Shown here piece by piece: positions 1-7,144 of a stretch of 64,000 bases of DNA. The position numbers were made by a program, and so were the translations under genes. Source of the stretch: Capsaspora owczarzaki ATCC 30864 (taxonomy: Eukaryota; Opisthokonta; Filasterea); the NCBI RefSeq assembly GCF_000151315.2, contig NW_011887296.1, forward strand, positions 901,095 to 965,094, written 5' to 3'. The notes beneath the pieces are model-generated. The model had not been told where the DNA came from. It ran no database searches and saw only the letters and a list, made by a program, of their open reading frames with translations. Numbering within the stretch: the stretch's first letter is position 1; the number at the start of each line of letters is the position of its first letter.

Positions 1-3000
1 CACTACGAGGTTGCACGAGCAATCGTCCTGCAGCGCGTCCAGCACGGCGCAGCTGAGTTTGCGACGTTCGAGCTGCACGTGTCGGCAGCGCAAGAGTCCG
101 GTGCTGCACCCGCGTTGGAGTCGCAGCAGCTGAGCGGCGGCCGTACCTCATCATCCCTCCTCTCCAGCTCGTCGCGGGCTGACACGACCACTACCTCCTC
201 CACCAGGCCTCCGCGATTCCGCATCTATGGCCAGCGCGGCAAAGTCGATGAATCTGTCGAGCAAGCCACGATTTCTTGCCGCTTCACCACAGAGTCCCTG
301 CTCGCCGAGCTCCTCTTTGGCGCGGTTGTCGCCGAGGCTCAGCGCGGTGGGTTTGCAAAAGTCCAAATCGCGTCGGCCTCGATTGGCTCGCCTCGGCGCC
401 GTCGCGATGCTCTCGAGTCGGCCTCCAGCTCGGCTGCTGCCACGCAACTGCCAGAGGAAGTCAAGCAGTTGGTGGCGGCCATCTTCCAAGACGCGCATGC
501 CCACTTGATCCGCACGGTGGACATGCCGCTTGGCACATTGTCTGTGCCGCAGATTGAAAAGGGTTTGACCATTTTAGGCACCATTGAAGGCATTCTACTC
601 AAGCAGACCAAGTCTGATGGTGCTCAAATGGACGACAACGGTGACAACGCAAACGGCACTTCTGCTTCTGCTTCTTCTTCTTCTTCTTCTTCTCCAATGC
701 CGAAGGGACTGTCTGCGTTGTCCAATGAGTTTTATGCCACCATCCCGCATAAGAGCCCTGCCAACCCGGTGACCAGTTTGCAAGCTGTCACGGACAAACA
801 AGAGCTTTGCCAGCTGCTGCTCGACGTGTGTGCAGTCAGCGAAACCAGCTGGCTCAGTTCGTCAACCTCCACGCCCGTCGAGCAGCAGTACCGCTCGCTG
901 GGCTGCGCCATATCGCCCGTCTCACTGGACAACCCGGAGCATGCCGCCGTTGCCACGCTGCTCCGTGAGGCCGCTGGCGCGCGGCCGCTCCCTGCTGGGT
1001 TTGCTGTTCGTCAGGTCTTTCAGTGTACGCGCAGTGCCGAAAGCGCGGCATTCATGGCCAACCTGCCTGGTGGTGGTGTGGCCGATGCGAACGTGCGCCA
1101 GTTGCTGCATGGTGCGCGTGCTGCCAATCTTGTCGGCATCCTGTCCCGCGGTCTGATGCTACCGCGCACGCTCGCTGATCGCTTCCAAATCGAGCGAACC
1201 GACTTTGGCTTTTTAGGGGCTGGCATTTACTTTTCGCCGGATGTCTCGTACGCGACAAGGTTTGCCATCCCTGGCTCGCTTGGTACTCGCTTTGCGCTCG
1301 TGTGCGACGTTGCCCTGGGCGAGGTGTACAAGACGACCGTGCACATGCCGTTGCTCTCTGCTCCGCCTCCTGGCTTTCACAGCGTCCACGGCGTTGGCGG
1401 ATCGGCCGCTTTTGCTGCGGACGAGTTTGCCGTGTACGACGCGCGGCGTCAGCGCGGAGCGTACCTTGTCGAGTTCACTGTGCTTGGCGACACGATCAAA
1501 CGACCTGCGACGACGCCCTCAGGTCTTCCCGCCGCCACGTCACCCGGCCCGCGCGTTCGCGATCTGAATGCCCCGTTCATGACCGGCGACTCGGACGAGG
1601 AAGACGAAGAGGAGGTGGCGGAACGTCGCCGACAAGCGCTTCTTTCCAAAGGCCGACCATTGGCAATCGAGGCCTCTCCTGCAGTTGCGCCTCAAGGAGC
1701 AAAGCCCAACGCGTCACGCAAGACACGCCAGCCGCAGCAGCGGCGGAAAGATGAACCGGCCGTGGCTCCGCCATCCCCAGCCCCTGTTGTTGCTGCTGTC
1801 GAGGCAAACCCCGCTCCAGCCAAAAATGTTCCGGCCTTCGTACTCGAAGCACCTGGCGAACCAGCCACTGTCAATCCCGTCTCCCTCGATGACGTCGCCA
1901 ACATCACCAATCCGATGGACAAGGTCGTTCCGGGCCTTGTGGCCGGCGGTGTCAGCGTTCCCCTGAGGTCTGTCCATGTCCGAACTCGCATCTTGGACTT
2001 GGTGGCTCAAGTCGTCGTCTTGCAAGAGTACTACAACAGCAGCGCCGATCCAATCGAAGCAAAGTACGTCTTCCCGCTCGACGACACAGCTGCCGTTTGC
2101 GGGTTTGAGGCGTTCATCAACGGCAAGCACATTGTCGGTGAGGTCAAGGAGAAGGAGCAAGCGCACAAAGAGTACAAGGAGGCTGTTGAGCGCGGCGATG
2201 GTGCCTATCTGATGGACGAGGAGACGCCAGACGTGTTTACGGTGAGCGTTGGCAATCTACCCCCGGCGTGTGCCTGCCTCATCAAGATCACGTACATTTC
2301 AGAGCTGGGCGTCGATGGCAGCGATGTCGTCTTTACGCTCCCAAGCTCGGTTGCCCCCAGCCGCCGCCAAGCCCTTCGCGCAAAGGCAGGCGCGACTCAA
2401 CAGACGGTGGCCTCGATCGACGTCGATGACACGAGCGCGCTCGACCTCTCTGTGCAGGTTTCCGTCTCCATGCCCTTTGACATCCAAGACGTGTACTCGC
2501 CCACGCATCCGCTCAAGCGCAAGCTGACTTCCACGCTTGCCACGGTTGAGCTGGATCAGCCACTGCTTGTTCGGATGGGTGAAGGATCTGGTTTCACCAA
2601 GGACTTTACCCTGCTCGTCAAAATGAGTCAAATCCACGTTCCGCGCATGTGGGTCGAGCAGGACGAGCAGGGCCACGAAGCCTGCATGCTGGCATTTTAT
2701 CCAGAGTTTGAGACGAGTGATGCGCTTGGGCGCAAGGGAGTGTCCACGCTGGACACCCATGAAGTCATCCTCATGCTTGACTGCTCCGCCAGTATGCGTG
2801 ACGCTGACGCTATTGTTGACATGAAAAAGGTCGCCCTGCTTGCGTTGCAGCGCCTGCCCGATGGCGCTCTCTTCAATGTCGTCTGCTTTGGCACCTTCTT
2901 TGACGAGCTCTTCCCGTGCGCTCGCCCAAAGATGCGCGACACTGTGCAGGCTGCCTGGCAGTACATTAACAACCTGTCACCATCGCTCGGTGGCACCGAG

Positions 3001-6000
3001 CTGTGGCACCCTCTCCACGCGTACTTTTTGTTGAACGCCCCTTCTTCCAGTGCTGCCGACGGCGGAAGCTCTGCCTCCTCGACCAGCAGTTTGGGCAGTG
3101 TGGCGCTCCCACCTGGCAGCACGCCTCTTCTGCATGCGGTCGAGCAGCAACGAGTGCGAAACGTGGTGCTCATCACCGACGGCCACGCCACCAAAGAGTC
3201 GGTTGTTTTGGATGCAGTTCGGGCCGCTGCGCCTGCCGTCCGCATTTTTACGTGCGCTGTCGGCTCGGCGTTCAATCGGCACTTTATCAACTCGGTGGCC
3301 CGCCTCAGCGGCGGCGCGTCCGAAGTGTTTGATCGCAAGCAGAAATCGGGATGGGAGCGTCGCGCTGGTCGTCAGGTGGATAAGGCGCTGCAGCCTTCTC
3401 TCACAGACGTCCGTGTGGAATGGGCAGTCCATGATGACAGCGCATCTGCCGACGTGACCACCATTGGCGGCAGCGACTCTCTCCTCTCCAAAGGCAAGGT
3501 GCAAGCGCCAGCGCAGATTGTGTCGCTCTTCCACGGCTCTCGGCAAATTGTCTACGGGTTTGTGCCGTTCTGTCGCATGGCCACCCTCAAGGCGCGCGTC
3601 GATGGCATGGAGGTCGAGACCATGGTGTCCACGCACGACCTTGCAGTGACCAAAGGCCGCATGCTGCATCAACTGGCCGCGCGTGCAGTCATCCGCGACT
3701 GGGACACTGGCTCGCTGGATTCGGATCGCATTGCTCACGAAGTGCGCAAGCGCGACTCCAAGCACCAAATTATCCAACTGAGCAAAAAGTACTCGATTGT
3801 CACTCAGTTTACGAGCTTTGTGGCTGTTGAGAAACGTGACAAGGAATCCGAAGCCAAGATCGACAAGTCGGCGATTCCTTCGATTGCCGAGCTCGTGGGA
3901 AAGGAAGACGTCGACAGCTTGCAGTACATGGGGTGGGAGGTGGACAAGCTCGCGCACGAGGCTGCCGCCAAGTCCAGCGCGACCAGCACTGCTTCCGACT
4001 CGTCCGTGTCCGAGCATGTTGCGCCCATGGTGTCGGCCGTCCGCGAATTATTGCGCGAGCTTCCTGCGATGGGCAGCCTGATCAACGCGCTGCTCGATGA
4101 CGCATGCTACACTGACAAGACGCAGAGCTACGCCGATGCCGCCATCAAGTTCCAAGAGGCCCTCGAACTGCTCGGGCAAGACGTGCCCCCGACCCATCCA
4201 GGTCTTCTTCGCCTTGCTGTGGCGTACGCCGACTACCTCGAGTATTACGCAGGAGACGGTCTTGGTGCGGTTGCCGTGCGCAAGGAGTTTTTCGACAACG
4301 CCATCAGCGAGCTGGATTGTTTGGCGGAAGACTCGTACAAGGACTCGACCCTGCTCATGCAGCAGCTTCGAGACGACCTGCAGCGTCAAGACGCCATGCT
4401 CAACGGTGAAGGCGGTGAGAACGATGACGCCCTTTCGTTCGGTGGCTTGACACGAGAAGAAGTGCAAAACACCCCTGCTCCGCCCCCGCTGCCCGACATG
4501 TCTGGTCTTCTTGATGCAATGACGACGACGAGCATTTCTCAGTCCATGAACGAACTGGGGCTCCATGCAGATGAGGACAAGCTCGATCTGCTGGTGGTTG
4601 ATGTTGGTATGGCGACTGTGAAGGCAGGAATGGCTGGCGAGGACGCCCCGTCTTCTGTCTTCCCGACGCTTGTCGGTCGTCCGCGCCACATAGGCGTCAT
4701 GGTTGGCATGGGACAAAAAGACTCGTACATTGGCGATGAAGCTGGATCCAAGCGAGGTATTTTGACACTCTCCAGTCCATTTTCCCGACCCGCTCCACGT
4801 CCTGCCGTGGCGGTTCCGCAGAACAAGCCCAAGCCAGCTCCTGACAACAAGCCAGCTCCTGAGAAGGCCCTTGTTTCCGACGCTCCAGTGGCTCCGCCGA
4901 TGAGGATGGCAGCGCCGGCGCCAATCACGGCATCAGCTCCCGCCGATTTCAGCCTCGAACCAGCACCCATCCAGATTCCTGCTCTGCCCAAGAAGCCACT
5001 GGCTCCGATCAGCTCTCAACTGCCTCAAGCTCAAACTGCATCCCTCCAGAAGGGCAAGAAGGCCGACAAAGGACCCGGGATTGATCTTTTGTTGCGGCAA
5101 TCGGTGGCTGATCCTGTTGCCTCTTCTTCTGCTGCTTCTGCTGCTGCTGCCGCTGCAGTTGCTGCTGCTGCTGCCTCTGCTGCTTTGGTTGCGGAACAGC
5201 AACAGCAGTCCAGTTTATTACCGACGCACTCTGAATGGAGACTGCCCTCTCAACCCTCGTTGGTGGGGGGATTGCCAATGATGCGGGGTGACCGGCTTGA
5301 AGGATCGACAATGCCAATGGTTGATGGAGTTCCTGCGCCTCAGCTTGAAGAGGAGCGATCCTTGAACCGAAGTCGACGGAAAGCAGAAGCAGTCTCTGTT
5401 CCTGCGACTGCCCCTGCTTCTGCTCCGACTCCTACTTCCGGCAAAACCGCATCCGCTTCGAGTCGCTCTCTGGCTGCTTCTGCCGTGTCCGCGCCTCCGC
5501 CTCCGCCACCAGCGCCAGCTCCAGCGGCAGCCCGACCGCCACCGCTACCGCCACGAGCGCCACCAGCGCCAGTTCTGCGCGGGGAAGCTGCTCCTCCCTC
5601 TGGCGGGCTCGCAAGGCAGTCGTCCTTGAGCGCGAGCACGGCAAGTGAAGCCGACTTTCTCTTCAAAGAAAGCCGCGTCAAGGACGCGCAGGAGAAAGAA
5701 GAGGCCAAAGCTCAAAACCGCCCGGCGCCGGTCGCCGCCGGTGCTGTCCGATTCACAGACACCCGTCAAGACGAAAGCTCCCGCCCAAGCCTGGAAGAGA
5801 CTCGGGCACCGATGCGGGCTGTTCCGGCCCCGGCATTCTTTGCCTCGCGCGCTGTTGGACCTTCGAAGGAGTTCTCGAATGCCACCAGTGCCTTCCAAAG
5901 CCAGGAAATCTCCATCGTCAGCTCAGTGAACGCAAGTCCCCGTGGCAGAGTTTTGGGTTTTGCCAGAAAGGCTGAGTGGGAGAATAGTAGTGCGCCTGCA

Positions 6001-7144
6001 GCGCCTGCTGGCCGTGGTGGTGCGCATGCTGGTCGTGGTCGTGGATCAGCAGCAGCTGCTGGCTCTCGAGGCCCAGCTCCGGAAGCCCTGATGCAGTCTC
6101 TTCAATCGTCCTTGAATGCTCGCCGAGGCGTAATCGAAAAAGCAGACAACTCTTCTGCAAGCGATTCAGAGGAGGACGACTGGTCAGACTCCCCGAGTTC
6201 GAAAGACTCCCAGAAACGATACGAGGCCAAAAAGGAACAGCCCAAAGCAGAAGAAGAGGAAGAGGATGGAGACATGGGCTACTCACTCTTTGATTCGGAG
6301 TTTACTTCGGAGACGATTACCGTCGAGTCTCCGAAACTGAAGGAAAAGGAAAAGGAAAAGAAGAAGAAGAAGCTGCGAGCATATGGCGGAGATGACGATG
6401 CTGATGAGGACGGCAAAAGCGGCAAGGCATCACGCGACAAGAAGGTGTTTGAGGGTTTCACCTTTGAGCCGCAAGCGCCTCCTCCGGTTTCCCAGCCTAC
6501 TTCAGCATGGCAGAAGGTCAAAGCCAAGCCCACTCCCAATCTCATGGCTCTGCAGCAAAGTGTATGTCTGGACGAGTGCATCGTGCTGGTGGAGAGGAGA
6601 GAGAGAGTGCGATGTGTGTGTTAATTCATGAATTGTTTGCAACATTCCCCGCGCATTCAGGATGGAAGCTTCTTGTTCAACTCCTCCACGTGTCGAGCCA
6701 TCCGGATTGACTTTGCCTTGCTGCAGAAAGAACTTGACCAAGCCGGTGTGCAATCGCTACGTAAGTGCTCGACTGGGAGCTAATGGGTAAAATCGGTTGG
6801 AGCAGATGGTTCTCTGTTTCTCATCATGATTCTCAATTTGCCTTGCAGTGCCGAGCGAACGTGCCGACGTTCCCAAGCTGGTTATGAGCATGCTGGTGCT
6901 GATTTACGCACACTTGCACTCTCTCTTGCAGGGCGTGCCTCAAGACACGCTGGACGATGTGGCCGAATCCATCTCGGGCCTCAATCTGTCCGCCTTTGGC
7001 ATGTCGGACCTCAGCATCATTGCGCCCCTCAAAGCGTATCTGCAGCGCGTGGATTCCAAGCATTCGGGCATTGTGAGTCGGCTCGAGCTTGGCAGCACCT
7101 GGGGCACCTTTGCTTTCCGCGTCTGGCGCACCATGTCCCAGTGA
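1..7144 (+). CDS. PARP4: Vault poly(ADP-ribose) polymerase (PARP4-like), 5' partial
   Basis: CDS join(<1..6561, 6662-1 (6661)..6760, 6849..7144); the frame is open from base 1, so the N-terminus (BRCT in PARP4) lies outside. It should transfer ADP-ribose from NAD+ and bind the vault particle. Order seen: WGR-like segment (about 1-400), PARP regulatory helices (about 448-600), catalytic domain (about 730-1500) with the triad His 1108-1110, Tyr 1228-1230 and Glu 1423-1425, VIT domain (1930-2350), VWA domain (2755-3300) with a DxSxS metal site at 2779-2793, a helical region, an actin-like segment (4582-4770), a long Pro/Ala/Ser- and charge-rich linker, and a C-terminal block in the last two exons (ending near a RLELG motif) that matches the PARP4 region binding major vault protein. 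About 2,318 residues are in the window. Domain order equals metazoan PARP4; the actin-like part does not. Family call is firm. Confidence 0.93.
4582..4770 (+). other. Actin-like N-terminal segment inside the vault PARP
   Basis: In frame with the PARP4 gene, about 63 residues follow the first part of conventional actin: the first phosphate loop region, the KAG.AG.DAP stretch, the GRPRH motif, the DNase-I-binding loop ([12 protein letters not shown]) and [12 protein letters not shown]. The match stops at the point where actin continues with KYP. The remaining actin fold (most of subdomains 1, 3 and 4) is missing, so ATP binding as in actin is not expected. No intron borders the segment. Similarity was judged by eye from knowledge of actin. 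Confidence 0.88.

Follow-up and report, generated by a model that had tools for sequence, protein, structure and literature searches.

A PARP4 homologue at the locus

The window, the whole stretch of 64,000 nucleotides analysed here, lies at C5:901095-965094 in a genome of 27.46 Mb in 29 contigs. Reading frame 1 is uninterrupted from window position 1 to 6624 and continues for 129 codons upstream, giving an open reading frame of 2207 amino acids within the window and of 2336 amino acids with the upstream DNA included (Table 1). In a phmmer search, human PARP4 aligned with this frame in three stretches over window positions 1-4110 (E 3.4e-186). Judged by this similarity, the host gene is a homologue of PARP4, the vault PARP (Clade 5), as the initial annotation had proposed. 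The Pfam matches and the alignment with human PARP4 place the domains in the order of PARP4, in which VIT and vWA come after the regulatory and catalytic PARP domains. The H, Y and E residues of the ADP-ribosyltransferase (ART) triad were read off the same alignment, at what we take to be the H-Y-E triad positions. Upstream of the window, the second half of a BRCT domain was detected (PF00533, 22.2 bits against a cut-off of 21.3, profile positions 44-78 of 78), the scan covering this second half only. PF16589 stayed below its cut-off on this region, and the best PDB match of the region is a DNA repair protein (E 0.0026), with SufC appearing in two further rows (E 0.74-0.75).

Table 1. Features of the PARP4 homologue in the window
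Feature	Position	Strand	Basis
Large PARP4 exon, start upstream of the window	1..6561	+	Open frame; human PARP4 match
PARP regulatory and ART catalytic domains	445..1410	+	Pfam PF02877, PF00644; alignment with human PARP4
VIT and vWA domains	1963..3324	+	PF08487 E 1.5e-38, PF13768 E 1.6e-17
C-terminal piece of 14-3-3	4114..4383	+	PF00244 E 1.8e-12, profile 131-220/223; phmmer E 4.4e-16
Actin residues 1-67: N-terminal hairpin and subdomain 2 with D-loop	4570..4770	+	Pfam, phmmer, gapless alignment
Pro/Ala/Ser-rich linker, no recognised domain	4771..6204	+	PDB, Pfam and genome searches
Tail like the C-terminal end of ribosomal P0/P1/P2, 24 residues	6223..6294	+	P0 alignment, shuffles, PDB, motif
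5' splice site of the large PARP4 exon, GTATGT	at 6562	+	Read from sequence
Second exon, PARP4 C-terminal region	6661..6760	+	Splice sites read; intron 6562-6660 GTATGT...CAG
Third exon, end of MVP-interaction-like region; stop 7142-7144	6849..7144	+	Splice sites read

Two short introns of 99 and 88 bases were read from the sequence in the 3' part of the gene. The C-terminal region obtained by splicing them out matches residues 1570-1698 of human PARP4 weakly (E 0.0078 for the sequence and 0.045 for the stretch), over positions 8-140 of a query of 151, and human PARP4 is its sole PDB hit at E<=1. The homologue thus resembles human PARP4 in the PARP, VIT and vWA domains and, weakly, in a C-terminal region like the MVP-interaction region, whereas it differs in between, where the phmmer alignment ends at human residue 1215 and restarts at 1570. 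Matches to MVP, the vault shell protein, occur at two separate loci (G000:C11:690144-690908 and C9:376253-377038), in open frames of 861 and 784 amino acids, with 8 repeats listed. The only other VIT match in the genome (L036, G000:C7:879282-879611) belongs to a VIT-vWA protein, and no 14-3-3 or actin piece was seen by eye in the 679 amino acids of it that were inspected.

An actin fragment within the PARP4 frame

Analysis of the linker confirmed an actin stretch inside the PARP4 frame. The Pfam Actin family matches amino acids 1527-1594 with 37.8 bits (cut-off 27, E 1.1e-9, profile positions 3-65 of 410). A phmmer search of the PDB returned 128 sequences at E<=0.001, the best 60 of which are actins with E values from 2.1e-27 to 7.8e-26; human PARP4 is absent among these best 60. 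None of 2000 shuffles matched the alignment score (best 56 vs 242). Shuffles, Pfam and PDB matches together rule out a chance similarity, and its significance, on which the initial annotation had staked its claim of actin origin, held. Whereas that annotation had only the actin segment, the similarities described below present it as one of three foreign-protein fragments in a single linker.

Searched against the genome, the stretch matches itself and two actins (67% over 70 residues) and, more weakly, three other loci. The two actin genes encode identical proteins and are 2 nucleotides apart across the compared gene. Ungapped alignment of the piece with this actin gives identity at 46 of 67 residues and 133 of 201 nucleotides, and stops sharply at ILTL, as had been noted before. 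Comparison along the alignment revealed that residues 33-67 (subdomain 2/D-loop) are identical at 30 of 35 positions and the D-loop itself (residues 40-50) at 10 of 11, with 16 of 32 for residues 1-32 and 3 of 8 for residues 11-18, which we take to be the first nucleotide-binding loop. The initial annotation had described a near-canonical segment of about 63 residues at 4582..4770. Its reading frame, its position in the linker and its inclusion of the D-loop all stand, but the start is better placed at 4570, which makes 67 residues, and "near-canonical" suits residues 33-67 and not residues 1-32. In terms of actin anatomy, the piece presumably comprises the first hairpin of subdomain 1 and nearly all of subdomain 2; the second nucleotide-binding loop lies outside it, and it falls short of a complete actin fold of about 375 residues.

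No 5' splice site of the form GTRNGT was found in 4301-4620 and no polypyrimidine-AG in 4761-5000, both scanned with simple consensus patterns, and codon statistics trained on the 5' part of the same PARP4 gene favour frame 1 in all 8 regions scored. No intron is therefore indicated beside the actin piece, in agreement with the earlier reading. AlphaFold gave no confident fold for the piece, either together with the 14-3-3 piece (block pLDDT 35-45) or alone (mean 43.8). Since these models rested on 5 sequences each, the missing fold is weak evidence, although it still counts against a rigid subdomain.

Two further linker pieces, similar to 14-3-3 and to the tail of ribosomal P-proteins

The 14-3-3 similarity, which phmmer extends from about 4069 to 4392, starts about 40 residues past the human-alignable region of PARP4. 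Its PF00244 score is 47.7 bits against a cut-off of 33.2, and it shares 39 of 89 residues with the single 14-3-3 gene that the genome search yielded; human PARP4 is absent among the best 60 of 123 PDB matches. The profile range shows that the N-terminal dimer helices are missing. Among the residues that we take to bind phosphopeptides in 14-3-3 (K49, R56, R127 and Y128 in its numbering), R127 and Y128 correspond to N and A in the PDB alignment, and the N-terminal part is absent. Because of the missing helices and these two replacements, the piece should not bind phosphopeptides in the manner of 14-3-3. AlphaFold predicted five helices for it, with block pLDDT values of 52-77. A Foldseek search with the helical model gave 14-3-3 as the best match (E 2.6e-5); among the best 50 of 662 matches at E<=10, 49 have 14-3-3 in the title, the exception being 5m35, and the TM-scores range from 0.28 to 0.37. 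A survey of viral contigs with the 14-3-3/actin region yielded one pattern match and no relative.

The third piece resembles the C-terminal tail of the ribosomal P-proteins. The P0 tail of the genome reads EAKKEEPKKEEKKEESEEGDMGFGLFD, and the PARP4 tail aligns with it at 18 of 24 identical residues with one gap of 3 amino acids, a score equalled by none of 5000 shuffles. Used as a 35-amino-acid query against the PDB at E<=10, the tail matched P0, P1 or P2 in 27 of 27 cases (uL10 and L10E counted as P0), each aligned to its last residue, with a best E value of 0.0019 and the other 26 between 0.02 and 1.7; human PARP4 is not among the 27. Within a linker query of 595 amino acids, the tail gave no PDB match at E<=1. 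The Pfam score of a 60-amino-acid piece containing it (24.5 bits, E 3.9e-5, profile positions 59-88 of 88) is below the cut-off of 28.1, and this profile range leaves out the N-terminal ribosome or dimer domain of the P-proteins. A DNA pattern for DMG[FY]xLFD, picked after the tail had been seen, occurs three times in the genome, in the PARP4 gene, in P0 and in a P2-like gene (named by eye), and the reversed pattern, used as a control, occurs nowhere in it. A further P-protein gene, the third, escapes the pattern, as its frame departs from the motif ahead of LFD. The tail retains the acidic DMGF(G/S)LFD-type end, but carries it inside the chain and not at its terminus.

PDB, Pfam and genome searches detected no further piece in the linker. 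No PDB match at E<=1 was obtained for 4777-6561 and no Pfam family exceeded its cut-off in the linker pieces scanned; the segment between the 14-3-3 and actin pieces (4384-4569) likewise matches no Pfam family, and 5566-6222 has only its self-match in the genome at E<=0.01. By eye, 6079-6201 shows a helical-looking stretch followed by DSEEDDWSD, 3' of the Pro-rich region, and recalls a WASP-type connector with an acidic end. This WASP-like reading was rejected, because Pfam, PDB and a genome WH2 search returned nothing for it: Pfam found no WH2 motif in PARP4, and PARP4 is not among the 11 genome WH2 matches at E<=10 (best candidates scored).

Age and selection of the actin piece

The initial annotation had suggested dating the capture by codon comparison with the genome's own actin genes. 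The piece and the actin use the same codon at 23 of their 46 identical residues, against 20.4 expected when each gene follows its own usage independently. The synonymous record is thus nearly erased, and the piece looks old. The NG86 estimates are dN 0.256 and dS 2.16 over the 67 codons and dN 0.10 and dS 1.18 over residues 33-67, the two ranges for which dS was computable (residues 1-32 gave none). If the donor was a diverged actin gene, it would mimic age, and dS would then overstate the time spent in PARP4.

Simulations of neutral drift did not reproduce this divergence. In a two-lineage model, in which the piece drifts neutrally, the parent takes only synonymous changes and protein identity is held at the observed value, with the donor and the mutation rates assumed, none of 1000 runs reached the observed nucleotide divergence for any of residues 1-67, 8-67, 33-67 and 1-32; a simpler one-lineage model gave 0 of 400. 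Because so conserved a protein with such diverged DNA was never reproduced, a purely neutral insert is unlikely, and plain neutrality is rejected under this model. The option of a neutral insertion, left standing by the initial annotation, is accordingly disfavoured by the dN and dS values and the simulations, and the piece is apparently under protein-level constraint. For the other option of that annotation, an actin mimic acting as a competitor for actin-binding proteins or docking through the D-loop, the observations point both ways: the D-loop is conserved, yet the nucleotide loop is eroded and no fold is predicted for the piece. At the protein level, residues 8-32 and 33-67 contrast weakly (p 0.067). 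Four-fold synonymous sites also differ more in the first half (10 of 12 vs 7 of 18, p 0.026), which leaves room for a contribution of codon bias or conversion. The D-loop is the best retained part of the piece and the nucleotide loop is poorly retained, a pattern that fits a binding piece and not an ATPase.

Actin D-loops outside PARP4

A scan that covered 84,980 prokaryote genomes yielded 17 matches to the pattern as well as 7 relatives. By ORF reading, 4 of the relatives are actins or actin exons and 3 are non-actin ORFs with an isolated D-loop (L050:5158-6204, L051:5197-6294 and L052:5347-6480), which by eye follows a signal-peptide-like start. L051 carries two D-loop copies, and L052 has an additional, later actin piece with a Pfam Actin score of 25.2 bits, just under the cut-off of 27. 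L050 and L051 look homologous, being 38% alike overall and identical at 21 of 21 D-loop residues. The search pattern contained the motif, so that any ORF it returned was chosen for having a D-loop; the 21 residues shared by L050 and L051 extend beyond the 8 residues of that pattern. Among 377 genomes of the phylum of L050-L052, 5 have a match, and three of these are L050-L052 themselves. The bacterial sequences (L047-L052) resemble the PARP4 piece in their near-identical D-loop, isolated from the rest of actin in L050-L052, whereas they differ from it in being secreted-looking ORFs, and in L047 and L049-L052 Pfam found no PARP or VIT family. On this comparison, the actin D-loop may be a portable module for binding that unrelated proteins have gained, those of bacteria included.

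Two further actin-like sequences were observed. One is a bacterial full-length actin (L049:1568-2854, Pfam 316 bits), which stands behind SRREFLALTAG, by eye a twin-arginine-like signal that would suit an exported protein. The other is an actin-related domain (L007:1501-2073, G000:C3:1181606-1182178; Pfam Actin 139 bits) that lies in one open frame behind stretches resembling PX, SAP and PH by eye.

Discussion

Perina et al. (2014, PMC4245714) described PARP4-like proteins with 14-3-3 (four amoebae, lancelet, sea urchin, Capsaspora) and with actin or actin-binding domains (Salpingoeca, Capsaspora, Acanthamoeba), and proposed that these proteins are linked to the cytoskeleton. The gene in the window is very probably the Capsaspora PARP4 of that list. 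By domain name the two descriptions agree (PARP, VIT, vWA, 14-3-3 and, in some proteins, actin), so the architecture is not new, but the sections of that article on PARP4-likes present neither the partial nature of the pieces nor a selection test or a P-stalk tail. Any recurrence of the actin piece in other species therefore rests on those domain names, one genome being examined here. The passages on Clade 5 or human PARP4 in PMC2964712 and PMC10711553 describe the protein without actin, 14-3-3 or P-tail parts. For the fragment nature of the pieces, the selection test and the P-tail, no account was found in the open-licence PMC literature, covered mostly by title and abstract.

We consider it an even proposition that the actin piece was captured long ago and kept by selection, and that together with the 14-3-3 piece and the P-tail it acts as a docking strip in the flexible linker of the vault PARP. 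The C-terminal region would anchor the PARP4 homologue to the inner vault wall, and the linker of more than 700 residues, with its three pieces, would hang in the vault lumen. There, the pieces would engage proteins that bind 14-3-3, actin or the ribosomal stalk, and these would be brought near the ADP-ribosyltransferase or be held as cargo. We infer the lumenal position from human PARP4, whose MVP-interacting domain has been seen on the vault wall (PMC13174449), and the binding and its consequence are likewise inferred. The proposal starts from the three homologies and their order in the chain, the age and constraint of the actin piece, the erosion of its nucleotide loop, the lost phosphopeptide residues of the 14-3-3 piece and the presence of MVP genes.

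Actin, 14-3-3 and the P-stalk proteins are typically abundant, and the pieces could be tolerated relics or spacers, left by old cDNA insertions from very abundant mRNAs in a permissive linker and binding nothing specific. The low complexity of the linker, its lack of recognised domains and the missing predicted fold of the actin piece are in keeping with such an origin, but we regard it as unlikely, given the protein-level constraint on the actin piece and a 14-3-3 appendage that, if homologous, is too widespread, from amoebae to lancelet, sea urchin and Capsaspora (PMC4245714). Alternatively, the pieces may be ancient structural parts of PARP4, the 14-3-3 helices and the actin hairpin folding together or with VIT-vWA and shaping the enzyme, with no partner recruited. 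The closeness of the 14-3-3 piece to the human-alignable region, its predicted helices and Foldseek match, and the domain-level recurrence in amoebae and Filasterea (PMC4245714) speak for this structural role. It is nevertheless quite improbable, as the model contains no confident actin part, the D-loop is the best kept portion of the actin piece and the segment between the two pieces matches no Pfam family. We give very little credence to the idea that the pieces serve as auto-modification substrates or decoys, offering abundant-protein sites to the ART domain or competing with their parents for modification or degradation: they do share a chain with an ART domain bearing an H-Y-E-like triad, but Arg177, which we take to be the actin residue best known for ADP-ribosylation, lies outside the piece. 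An artefact is barely credible, since a chimeric join with the genome's own actins is ruled out by the 21 of 67 residues that differ from them, while a stretch spliced out of the mRNA is opposed by one continuous frame in which the scanned ranges show no strong splice consensus, and Perina et al. (2014, PMC4245714) had already seen actin or actin-binding domains in the Capsaspora protein.

For the docking strip, the P-tail is the most telling piece, because the P-stalk serves as an activator of translational GTPases and a partner of Gcn2 (PMC11624264) and because 80S ribosomes lie inside the vaults of Dictyostelium with ordered orientations (80 of 985 cytosolic, 4 of 14 membrane-bound; PMC13100048). 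Proximity labelling of these vaults also enriched 69 of 79 ribosomal proteins (PMC13100048), and the P-tail fits the recent images of ribosomes within them (PMC13100048). A bolder and decidedly doubtful extension is that in unicellular holozoans the vault PARPs bear a "bait strip" made up of short fragments of the most abundant cell proteins, in which, here, the P-tail would hook translation GTPases, stress kinases or ribosomes, and the D-loop would hook actin, into the lumen beside the ADP-ribosyltransferase. If this were true, the strip would hint directly, at the molecular level, at the reason why ribosomes are found inside vaults. A vault enzyme with apparently selected fragments of actin, 14-3-3 and the ribosomal stalk points to candidate partners for direct experimental tests of what vaults do.
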